64,000 bases of DNA from contig PSRM01000181.1 in NCBI GenBank assembly GCA_003176045.1, positions 1 through 64,000 on the forward strand. The letters are read 5' to 3'. A program made the translations under genes and the position numbers. The first letter of the stretch is position 1, and each line of letters starts with the position of its first letter. This document shows positions 5,545-59,405 of this stretch, piece after piece. This DNA comes from Verrucomicrobiota bacterium (lineage in GTDB: Bacteria > Verrucomicrobiota > Verrucomicrobiia > Limisphaerales > UBA8199). The notes beneath the pieces were generated by a model. It did no database searches. It was not told the origin of the DNA and worked only from the letters and a program-made list of their open reading frames with translations.

Positions 5545-6492
5545 TTAACGAAGGTCTATATCTCCCGCAATCGCCGCCTCGATATGTTTGCGATCCAGGA
5601 CCCGACCTTGCACGCCGTCTTCCACGCGAAAGAGTTGCACTACGCTCAGATCGTACGCCGGCCTACTAGCGAAGGCTTCATGAGCGGCGCGCAAGCACTC
5701 ATCACTATGCGTTGTGGCGAAGACCTGCAGATCCAGGCGTTGGGCGACCTCTGCTATGCCGCTCCATACCTGGGCCAGGACAGAATGGTGAATCCCATTC
5801 TCCACCTCGTCTATGAAGCAGAGTTGAGGGTGTTCTCCAAGCAAGTCGGCGAAAATCCAGACCAGGCGATACATCCCTTCCCCCGCTTGAGCCAGTGGAA
5901 TCATTTCAGACAAGCCCAAATCAACGACAATCACGTTGCCATCCTCTGCGACGTCAACGCGGGCTTTTGAAACCCTGGGGTCCACCGTGCGCAGGAGTGA
6001 TTCGATTTGATGCTCGCCATCTCGCTGCCGAACCGCTTGAGCGAAAGTCTTTACCATCTGATCTGAATCTGGGGCCCGGACTGAGATCACTTGGCTACGT
6101 AGAGGTTTTTCTGGCCCCCACCAACCAAACAGCCCGTTTTGTTCGAGAACCTTCTGATAAGGACCATCAAACTCCGGATTAGGTGTATGTTGAAAAAGCA
6201 GGGTGTAATTAGTTCCCCAACCATGTCCTGCCACCTCAGCGAGTGTTACTCCGTCATCGTCGCGAATCAGCCACCGATAAAATCGGCGCGGGTAGCCACC
6301 ATGAGTCGCCCGAAATAGGATGGGTAGCCGTCCGAGCACCCGCGGATCGGCCAGGCTGGCAACGGCTTCAAGGAGTGAGGTCTTGCCCGCGTTGTTTTTC
6401 CCCACTATGAGATTGACGCGCTTCAACCCATTCAAGGCGAGATTGCCGAATCCTCGAAAATTCTTGATTGAAATGCTCTCAAACATAGACAC
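5545..6492 (-). CDS. AAA15/OLD-like ABC-type ATPase
   Basis: A 315-residue SMC/ABC-like ATPase. It starts with ISIKNFRGF, the usual opening of AAA15/OLD/RecF-like proteins. It has a Walker A at residues 31-39 (GKNNAGKTS), a signature-like segment AQAGEGMYRL near 201-210, a Walker B with catalytic Glu at LCFIDEVENG (224-233), and the switch-like FATTHSDE (258-265). There is no fused nuclease domain; that function is probably supplied by the adjacent TOPRIM-like protein. It is shorter than full OLD nucleases and close to the size of ATPases in two-gene defence modules. Upstream lies thrS on the same strand, only about 58 bases away. Confidence 0.85.
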   Translation of the reverse strand: MSMFESISIKNFRGFGNLALNGLKRVNLIVGKNNAGKTSLLEAVASLADPRVLGRLPILFRATHGGYPRRFYRWLIRDDDGVTLAEVAGHGWGTNYTLLFQHTPNPEFDGPYQKVLEQNGLFGWWGPEKPLRSQVISVRAPDSDQMVKTFAQAVRQRDGEHQIESLLRTVDPRVSKARVDVAEDGNVIVVDLGLSEMIPLAQAGEGMYRLVWIFADLLGEHPQLCFIDEVENGIHHSVLAQVWSGIAEVAQRLDLQVFATTHSDECLRAAHEAFASRPAYDLSVVQLFRVEDGVQGRVLDRKHIEAAIAGDIDLR

Positions 6493-13664: not shown

Positions 13665-13711
13665 TTAGCGCGGGTTTCCAAACTCAATATCACTACCTTT
13701 TCGTTTCTTAA

Positions 13712-13905
13712 TCCCGTAGGGATGAAAGAAAATAGCCCAGCGTTTCAACGCTGGGACCGTGCTCCAACATGGAATAAGTCCCGTTAGGGACGACAGAACC
13801 ATTTTCTCTGTCGTCCCTACGGGACTCGTGCCTTTCAACGACTCGTCCCCAGCGTTGAAATTGAAACGCTGGGCTATTTTCTGTCGTCCCTCCGGGACTG
13901 GGGCC
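13712..13905. repeat. GGGACGACAG / CCCAGCG hairpin element
   Basis: The second large copy of the element, with cccagcgtttcaacgctggg at 13737, gtcccgttagggacgacag at 13778, cgtccctacggg at 13812 and a mirrored cagcgttgaaattgaaacgctg at 13850, the last split by its own loop. It lies between the converging kinase and dihydropteroate synthase-like genes. Confidence 0.85.
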
Positions 13906-51599: not shown

Positions 51600-51697
51600 T
51601 AGGTTTTGAGAGCGGGACATAGAGCCAGGCGCCAGGGGGCCTGTTCCGCTTTCCTATACCAGGGTCGCGCAGCGCTGCGCGCGGCCCTGGTTTTTTT
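51600..51697 (+). ncRNA. Candidate structured RNA ending in an intrinsic terminator
   Basis: Bases 51611-51650 can fold: agcgggaca pairs with tgttccgct (one G-T pair), with an inner ccaggcgcc / ggcc-type stem. The next element is a perfect intrinsic terminator at 51659-51697. No protein gene is found upstream on this strand for 500 bases, so the terminator could close a small RNA. The 5' end and promoter are not defined. It matches no RNA family that I recognise, and could also be a decayed gene. Confidence 0.4.
51659..51697 (+). terminator. Intrinsic terminator
   Basis: CCAGGGTCGCGCAGCG folds back on CTGCGCGCGGCCCTGG and is followed by seven T residues. Nearly perfect long GC stem with a T-run directly behind it. 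Confidence 0.85.
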
Positions 51698-52016
51698 GTT
51701 TCGTTTTAGTCATTAGTCTGTAGTCTGTAGTCGCGCTGCACGCGACCCGGTTTTTGTTCGGTGTATTGCTGGCCTCGAAATGATACCACAACATCGAAAT
51801 GAGACCAATCCTTGGCCTTGAATTGAGGCTGATTCCCCGGGGGATTTGGTCGGAGCTGATCGCAGCGAGCGCCTCAATTGCTCCATCGCCTAAAATATCT
51901 AAGCCGTGCGATGATAACAGGTTACGTGAATATGCTCTTGCCCGGAACTACTCACTTGCGTGCAGGTTCGGCCCACTGGTGAAATTTGGCATTATTCCTG
52001 CCTTTAATAGCTGATC

Positions 52017-52199
52017 ATGTCCCAAAAATCCAAACGAGACGGCAGGAGTCCTGGCTCGAATAAACCGGGCAACAAAAAGGCGCCGTTTATTCGCTTGCAG
52101 GACTTGATTCCCCGAAAAACGGTGACCGGCGGAAGCGGCCTGTTGTTTGGGGCGAGCAACAACCAACAAAACCAAAACCAAACAGGTAAAGACTCATGA
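52017..52199 (+). CDS. Small peptide 1 with double-glycine leader-like motif
   Basis: A 60-residue peptide. The N-terminal half is basic (MSQKSKRDGRSPGSN). Residues about 25-39 read IRLQDLIPRKTVTGG, which shares its pattern with the next two peptides: hydrophobic-x-hydrophobic-[KQ]-D-L-x-x-R-K-x-V-x-G-G. After the GG (38-39) comes SGLLFGASNNQQNQNQTGKDS. The gene overlaps the next one by four bases (ATGA). GG before a variable core is the usual export/cleavage site of many RiPP and bacteriocin precursors; that role here is inference. It is the first of a three-gene unit ending at the terminator at 52668. Confidence 0.8.
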   Translation: MSQKSKRDGRSPGSNKPGNKKAPFIRLQDLIPRKTVTGGSGLLFGASNNQQNQNQTGKDS

Positions 52200-52396
52200 A
52201 AATCCAACGCAAACATAAGATCGCAGTGAAAGACCTACGCACACGCAAAGATGTCAAAGGCGGCACCAGTGGCCACAGCAATCCCACGACCCACGGAAAT
52301 AGTCCCACGACCCACGGAAATAGTCCAACCGTCAGCAAGCCTCAGCCCACCAGCGGTGGAATAAATCCCAGTTCGATCGGGAGCGTGCTCACCTAG
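52196..52396 (+). CDS. Small peptide 2 with double-glycine leader-like motif
   Basis: A 66-residue peptide overlapping peptide 1 by four bases. The leader-like part is KIAVKDLRTRKDVKGG (residues 8-23). The part after GG is TSGHSNPTTHGNSPTTHGN and then SPTVSKPQPTSGG, ending INPSSIGSVLT. It contains a tandem Pro-Thr-Thr-His-Gly-Asn-Ser repeat, visible as two identical nucleotide blocks. Low in hydrophobics and rich in Ser, Thr, Gly, Asn and Pro. Not similar to any protein I recognise except its two neighbours. Confidence 0.82.
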   Translation: MKIQRKHKIAVKDLRTRKDVKGGTSGHSNPTTHGNSPTTHGNSPTVSKPQPTSGGINPSSIGSVLT

Positions 52397-52443
52397 TCCA
52401 ACCGCCCAGGCCGGTTCATTCAAACCAATAACAGTCAAAAGCA

Positions 52444-52641
52444 ATGAAAAACGAACGGATACACCAGCCGCTCAGGATCTCGTTGAAGGATCTCAGCGCC
52501 CGCAAGGACGTCAGAGGCGGCGTTAGCCATATCACCAACAGCGGCAAGAACACCTCCGGCAACGGCTCCAAGCCTTCAAGCAGCCAGCCGGCCGCCAGCA
52601 AGCCCACAGGCGGCTCGCAGCTCAGTTCGGTTTTCACCTGA
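52444..52641 (+). CDS. Small peptide 3 with double-glycine leader-like motif
   Basis: A 65-residue peptide, 47 bases after peptide 2. The leader-like part is LRISLKDLSARKDVRGG (residues 10-26). After the GG follows VSHITNSGKNTSGNGSKPS and then SSQPAASKPTGGSQLSSVFT. As in peptide 2 the core is rich in Ser, Thr, Gly, Asn and Lys and the chain ends in a Ser-Val-x-Thr pattern (SVLT and SVFT). The terminator lies 27 bases downstream, so the three genes form a closed transcription unit. Confidence 0.82.
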   Translation: MKNERIHQPLRISLKDLSARKDVRGGVSHITNSGKNTSGNGSKPSSSQPAASKPTGGSQLSSVFT

Positions 52642-52667
52642 TAAACAAAACCAGAGGAGAGGAGTCT

Positions 52668-52701
52668 CCCCTCCGCCGGCAAAGCCGGCGGAGGGTTTTC
52701 T
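52668..52701 (+). terminator. Intrinsic terminator of the three-peptide unit
   Basis: ccctccgccggc pairs perfectly with gccggcggaggg around a 3-base aaa loop and is followed by ttttc. The stem is 12 bp. It lies directly after peptide 3. Confidence 0.9.
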
Positions 52702-52754: not shown

Positions 52755-52860
52755 GAAAGCGGCAGAGGACTGCCGCACTCCAAGACGCTGGCGCGTTTTC
52801 GTGAGCGCCACGAAATGCCGAAGGTCTTGGAGTGCGGCAGTCCTCTGCCGCTTTCTCTCG
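52755..52860. repeat. Paired hairpin element, GCGGCAG stem
   Basis: The left half is agcggcagaggactgccgc followed by actccaagac (52759-52786). The right half, the exact mirror, is gtcttggagtgcggcag then tcctctgccgct (52824-52852). Here the border is GGAGTGC rather than GGAGCGC. The two halves match well over more than 25 bases. The element overlaps the open frame upstream of the chosen start of the next gene. Confidence 0.9.
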
Positions 52861-59274: not shown

Positions 59275-59405
59275 AATAGTCCCGCAGGGGACGACAGATA
59301 ATAGCCCAGCGTTTTCAACGCTGGGTTTGCGGGGCGGCGCCGAACAAGTCCCGTCAGGGACGGCAGAATCAGTCCTTTCTCTCTGCCGTCTCTGCGGGAC
59401 TCAGC
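59275..59405. repeat. GGGACGACAG / CCCAGCG element
   Basis: agtcccgcaggggacgacag at 59278, cccagcgttttcaacgctggg at 59306 (split), then gtcccgtcagggacggcag at 59348 and ctgccgtctctgcgggac at 59381. Fourth copy; it lies between the PEP-CTERM gene and the next gene. Confidence 0.85.

Follow-up and report, generated by a model that had tools for sequence, protein, structure and literature searches.

Short double-glycine leader peptides of a Verrucomicrobiota genome, probably served in trans by a cNMP-C39-ABC exporter

Three consecutive short genes in the stretch of Verrucomicrobiota DNA analysed here (64,000 nucleotides, the window) very probably encode precursor peptides that are exported, and cut after a Gly-Gly (GG) pair, in trans by the single cNMP-C39-ABC exporter of their own genome. 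The initial annotation had read the peptides as GG-leader precursors from the window alone, and this reading is now strongly supported: in related genomes, open reading frames (ORFs) with the same leader block lie beside a C39 exporter, and the window's genome (G000) has one such exporter. In the mechanism that we propose, the Peptidase_C39 domain of that exporter (contig C121) would recognize the cationic N-terminal leader and cut after GG during export, in which the core would leave the cell by way of the ABC channel and an HlyD adaptor, aided by a SurA/PpiC-like protein of the same gene cassette; the cassette's sigma-54 activator would probably drive expression of the peptide genes. Cleavage at GG, export and sigma-54 control are all predictions from sequence.

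Gene 1 (52017–52199, + strand) encodes a 60-residue precursor of a conserved type, and genes 2 (52196–52396, +) and 3 (52444–52641, +) encode precursors of 66 and 65 residues, respectively, of a variable-core type. Genes 1 and 2 overlap by ATGA at 52196–52199. The leader blocks are LQDLIPRKTVTGG in gene 1 (52095–52133, +), VKDLRTRKDVKGG in gene 2 (52226–52264, +) and LKDLSARKDVRGG in gene 3 (52483–52521, +), with cleavage predicted after 52133, 52264 and 52521; in gene 1, DLIPRKTVTGG is followed by the core SGLLFGASNNQQNQNQTGKDS. The gene 2 core repeat SPTTHGN is encoded by a perfect 21-bp tandem repeat (2.1 copies, 52282–52326, +), the peptides of genes 2 and 3 end in SVLT and SVFT, and an intrinsic terminator with a 12-bp stem, a 3-nt loop and a T-rich tail (TTTTC) follows at 52669–52695 (+). 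All the elements listed in the initial annotation (three ORFs, ATGA overlap, GG-ending blocks, SVLT and SVFT ends, 12-bp terminator) were found in place. Searches of Pfam and NCBIfam gave no family above noise for the three window peptides, nor for the one relative tested.

Other features were seen around the operon and elsewhere in the window. In the 0.9-kb gap before the operon, 51658–51691 (+) holds a strong hairpin that, with its long run of T, resembles a terminator; no clear gene precedes it and Rfam gave no match, and it may mark where an unannotated small RNA ends. Just 3′ of the operon, at 52760–52850, lies an inverted repeat with arms CGGCAGAGGACTGCCGC. A similar hairpin separates the HlyD gene of the cassette from its sigma-54 activator gene (L119, about 6015–6110), and the element is probably a dispersed repeat. 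Three copies of the Acido-Lenti-1 RNA (RF01687) score above the gathering score, at 13710–13755 (−), 13848–13899 (+) and 59278–59325 (−).

The signal that identifies relatives resides in the leader block alone. Used as queries, the whole of gene 3 or a three-row alignment returned no more than weak noise in family and class, because the cores are low-complexity and variable. A degenerate DNA pattern for the block, run on 84,980 species genomes, matched 15 stretches, four of them short ORFs with the block; three of these four come from Verrucomicrobiota and are peptide-like, and two of the three verrucomicrobial genomes reached from the pattern scan alone have 63–64% identical exporters. The remaining stretches fell in long or unrelated frames, several of them TIM-barrel-like, and were dropped on their ORF context. 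A second pattern, run on 388 genomes of the phylum, matched four, of which G206, G237 and G250 have short block ORFs, often several in succession; the match in the fourth, G513, was a chance frame opposite a large ORF and was rejected. The motif-profile search of Verrucomicrobiota that the initial annotation had proposed, carried out on the 388 phylum genomes, returned short ORFs with the block in other genomes. An additional isolated ORF with the block RDMQAKKNVSGG (G237:C5:126480; L173 2403–2579, −) was matched by the leader profile at E 2.4e-4. One match, L079, comes from a genome labelled Bifidobacterium breve (G710) that lacks such an exporter, and its block is C-terminal; it was left out of the supporting evidence, although its leader row is included in profile A4. 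Viral contigs yielded no relative of the peptides.

Together, 27 short ORFs spread over Verrucomicrobiota were tabulated with the block I-x-L-x-D-L-x-P-K-K-D/N-V-x-G-G, or in wider form I-x-[LV]-x-D-L-x-[PA]-[KR]-K-[DN]-[VAP]-x-G-G. The table was keyed on the frame common to all 27, namely D(−11), L(−10), G(−2) and G(−1); I(−15), L/V/I(−13), P or A(−8) and K/R(−7) are strongly preferred, followed by mostly K(−6), D/N(−5), V/A/P(−4) and often K(−3). Most leaders are cationic, with a net charge of +4 to +10. The published double-glycine consensus is M(R/K)ELX3E(I/L)X2(I/V)XG(G/A), alongside the NHLP and N11P families (PMC3140520), and the family departs from it: V/A/P stands at −4, where the consensus has I/V, but the canonical E-(L/I) at −8/−7 is replaced by P/A(−8) and K/R(−7), with leader hydrophobics at −10, −13 and −15 instead. 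Since the canonical E-L/I is missing at −8/−7, leader recognition must differ. The leader strings were not found in the paper texts searched, a coverage that largely excludes subscription journals.

Two kinds of core follow the GG. The gene-1-type core is short, with [VIL]FG or FFG within a few residues of GG, and the pattern is kept in G206, G237, G250, G708, G517, G650, G464 and G592, the last four from distant classes (LFG, FFG, VFG or IFG). Cores of the gene 2 and gene 3 types are variable, mostly hydrophilic and cysteine-poor, often with small repeats; in the window they are hydrophilic, cysteine-free and rich in S, T, G, N and P.

Examination of the relatives' neighbourhoods, another check that the initial annotation had proposed, placed a C39-peptidase ABC exporter directly beside block ORFs. 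The cassette consists of four genes, for a SurA/PpiC-like protein (about 360–400 aa), a cNMP-Peptidase_C39-ABC exporter (about 1045 aa; two cNMP_binding domains, Peptidase_C39, ABC_membrane and ABC_tran), an HlyD adaptor (HlyD_3) and a sigma-54 activator (Sigma54_activat). The SurA-like protein of G250 matches TIGR04500, ‘putative peptide maturation system protein’, with E 1.3e-12, below the cut-off. Motif ORFs lie directly 3′ of the activator gene in G250 (6 ORFs) and G206 (2). In G708, a gene-1-type peptide comes after the four cassette genes, at the contig end, and another contig opens with two further motif peptides; in G237, the cassette lies at the edge of one contig and two peptides start another. 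Each of the two cassettes of G169 shares its stretch with motif peptides. One contig of G707 carries a radical SAM/SPASM gene with a motif peptide on either side and, a few kilobases from them, the exporter and HlyD genes. Precursor and exporter genes are linked in G250, G206, G708, G169 and G707, and lie on different contigs in the window's genome.

In that genome, exactly one protein matches Peptidase_C39 (PF03412). It is encoded at G000:C121:1462–4581, is 65% identical to the G206 exporter over 1041 aa, and retains the catalytic Cys, His and Asp and the oxyanion Gln of the C39 domain (AQIDEMDCGAA, GNHWMV, VADPA). Its gene lies within the same four-gene cassette, which is followed by unrelated genes, and contig C121 has no motif peptide beside the cassette; operon and exporter are on different, unordered contigs. 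A leader profile (21 training rows, the three window ORFs among them) matched at E≤1 in the 7.7-Mb genome these three ORFs and no others, and the degenerate DNA pattern matched genes 2 and 3 only, with a reversed-pattern control giving 0. One Peptidase_C39 match and only three leader-bearing ORFs point to the pairing of one operon with one exporter, encoded apart. As no transporter lies near the peptides in their own genome, the pairing is made by elimination and from linkage in the family; the genome, at 86% completeness, might encode a second C39 protein in its missing part. The initial annotation had argued for a new class from the absence of a transporter within 10 kb, an argument that fails because the transporter is encoded in trans.

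Leader and cassette also co-occur across the phylum. A profile of the SurA-like protein found the cassette in 8 of the 388 phylum genomes, and a 22-position leader profile matched 8 of the same genomes at E<0.005, 7 of them with the cassette. Four of the eight leader-positive genomes had supplied training sequences; with these excluded, 384 genomes were left, in which the leader was found in 3/4 cassette-positive versus 1/380 cassette-negative genomes (Fisher P=1.7e-6). In a sample of the window's order the cassette occurs in only 3 of 196 genomes; of the other two, only G169 has it complete, and carries peptides beside both of its cassettes. The cassette of G091 is cut by a contig end and no peptide was seen on that contig. 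In G672 a cassette but no peptide was detected, in G464 a peptide but no cassette, and the motif is present and the exporter absent in G709 and G710.

Promoter-like sites and the linked activator suggest that the peptide genes are under sigma-54 control. A sigma-54-type element, TGGCATTATTCCTGCC (GG-N10-GC; 51987–52002, +), lies 30 nt before the gene 1 start codon and is the best site within 120 nt (empirical P 0.04); the start site predicted from it would give a nearly leaderless transcript. A TGGYAT element is found 27–31 nt before the gene 1 start codon in the window and in G250, G237 and G206, with imperfect −12 elements in G206 and G237, and near-perfect sites (TGGCATGGCTTTTGCT and TGGCATGTCCATTGCT) occur further upstream in G517 and G650. 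The combined P value was 4e-4 for the regions of the window, G250, G237 and G206 and 1.5e-4 for all 15 upstream regions; for the seven best regions, chosen from the 15 after the fact, it was 9e-7. The activator of the window's genome matches the NifA model with E 1.2e-84, below the cut-off. As sites are clear in some of the 15 regions and absent in others, we keep sigma-54 control as suggestive.

The initial annotation had allowed for ‘secreted or modified’ peptides; its leader and precursor reading is strongly supported. Modification would make the peptides RiPP precursors, with the cores tailored, by a radical SAM/SPASM protein or another enzyme, before C39 export and the block doubling as the enzyme-recognition leader. 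This is unlikely in our estimation. The PapB/SCIFF-like radical SAM/SPASM gene that lies between two motif peptides in G707 would fit such a scheme, and the Ser/Thr-rich cores could be substrates, but neither next to the window peptides nor at the G250, G206, G237 and G708 loci was a RiPP enzyme of known type noticed among the neighbours, which were read by eye and in part run against family libraries. Furthermore, the G707 radical SAM protein had no match at E≤1e-5 in the window's genome, in a search that lacked a positive control, and cysteine is missing from the family's cores except in G707. As no modifying enzyme was found, the RiPP designation is unsupported for the window's genome. The G707 enzyme itself (L084 5373–6887) is nearest to PapB and SCIFF maturases, far below their cut-offs, and one of the motif peptides beside it has a CPC core; this is a candidate new modified-peptide locus.

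The block might alternatively be an uncleaved docking tag for the SurA-like protein, the C39 domain or a surface structure, with the full-length peptide acting in the cell or periplasm. This protein-binding tag, which the initial annotation had offered as its alternative, we judge quite improbable and less likely than a cleaved leader. It would account for a block that is long (about 15 residues) and conserved beyond the needs of a cut site, and for the C-terminal block of the outlier L079; the gene-1-type peptides of G517, G650 and G464 adjoin type IV prepilin-like genes, which could mean pseudopilus assembly. Against it, GG is invariant and in one register in the 21 aligned and 27 tabulated sequences, the sequence diverges sharply after GG, and the linked partner is a C39 peptidase with intact catalytic residues. 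The gene-1-type peptides in question are found at L174, L175, L176, L177 and L180 (G517, G464, G650), next to genes whose products have type IV prepilin-like N-termini, and the neighbours at L176 further include an ATPase gene that was judged PilB/PilT-like by eye. The secreted peptides may have a connection with a pseudopilus.

That the ORFs are non-functional, either arising by chance or left to decay after an operon once linked to the cassette was cut off from its exporter, as the operon's separation from the cassette and the low-complexity cores might indicate, is most improbable given three intact ORFs with a coupled start and stop and a terminator, a gene-1/gene-2 order shared with relatives, and a block whose common residues diverge synonymously. 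Genes 2 and 3 agree at 10 of the 15 positions of the block, 5 of them through different codons, and genes 1 and 3 share 9 residues of the block, 7 of them encoded differently; selection has thus acted on the protein, and the block is translated and conserved. This bears out the purifying selection on the motif that the initial annotation had required. A genome-wide search with gene 3 also matched gene 2 (E=4.3e-5).

With the exported-precursor reading preferred, the two core types may differ in role. The conserved short gene 1 core (LFG/VFG) might perhaps be a signal or structural peptide. For genes 2 and 3, the hydrophilic repeat cores and an architecture like that of EbfG/PteB tentatively suggest a matrix or cell-surface role similar to that of EbfG, rather than a membrane-active bacteriocin. 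More broadly, we put forward only tentatively, as a picture that is less likely than not to hold, that Verrucomicrobiota have an undescribed phylum-wide system in which a distinct leader class serves a cNMP-gated C39 exporter and which, switched by sigma-54, would release a conserved gene 1 peptide and fast-evolving repeat peptides for signalling between cells or for matrix building, coupled in some lineages to type IV pseudopilin-like proteins.

A canonical leader and a neighbouring exporter are the usual guides to double-glycine peptides. The family shows neither in the window's genome and is absent from Pfam and NCBIfam, so such peptides would be missed. With the leader profile and the cassette, peptides that have no exporter beside them can be assigned to a defined one, in bacteria that have been little studied, and peptide secretion in Verrucomicrobiota becomes directly testable, with one peptidase, three substrates and one predicted cut site.

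As far as the tools used here show, what is new is the leader class and the phylum in which it occurs, the sigma-54 link, the conservation of gene 1 and the encoding of peptides and exporter in trans, and such secreted peptides seem to be previously undescribed in the phylum. The NHLM/NHLP export system (TIGR03796, TIGR03794) shares a C39 ABC exporter of the same superfamily and an HlyD adaptor, but the proteins of the window's genome score far below its cut-offs (523/853 bits and 44/156 bits) and no NHLP-type leader is present. The NHLP/N11P precursors of Haft 2010 reportedly carry a nitrile-hydratase-like or Nif11 leader domain; neither was detected in the three window peptides with Pfam or NCBIfam. 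HetC of Anabaena, likewise a C39 peptidase transporter, has a PteB-like domain organization and is required for heterocyst differentiation, with its substrate unsettled (PMC4997328). The cyanobacterial bacteriocin clusters of groups I, II and VI described by Wang et al. 2011 combine a long-type C39 exporter, HlyD, SurA and GG precursors (PMC3140520). They resemble the present cassette in the C39 ABC transporter with an N-terminal extension, HlyD, the SurA/rotamase protein and the GG precursors, but the block described here departs from their double-glycine motif and matches no NHLP/N11P model. The closest known system, compared by architecture only, is EbfG1–4/PteB of Synechococcus elongatus PCC 7942. 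There, a C39 transporter both exports and matures four co-transcribed small GG proteins on which biofilm formation depends (PMC4997328). Both systems pair a set of small GG-motif proteins with a C39 peptidase transporter; unlike EbfG/PteB, the system described here has the leader D-L-x-P-K-K-D-V-x-G-G, a sigma-54 activator in the cassette and peptides encoded in trans, and belongs to another phylum.
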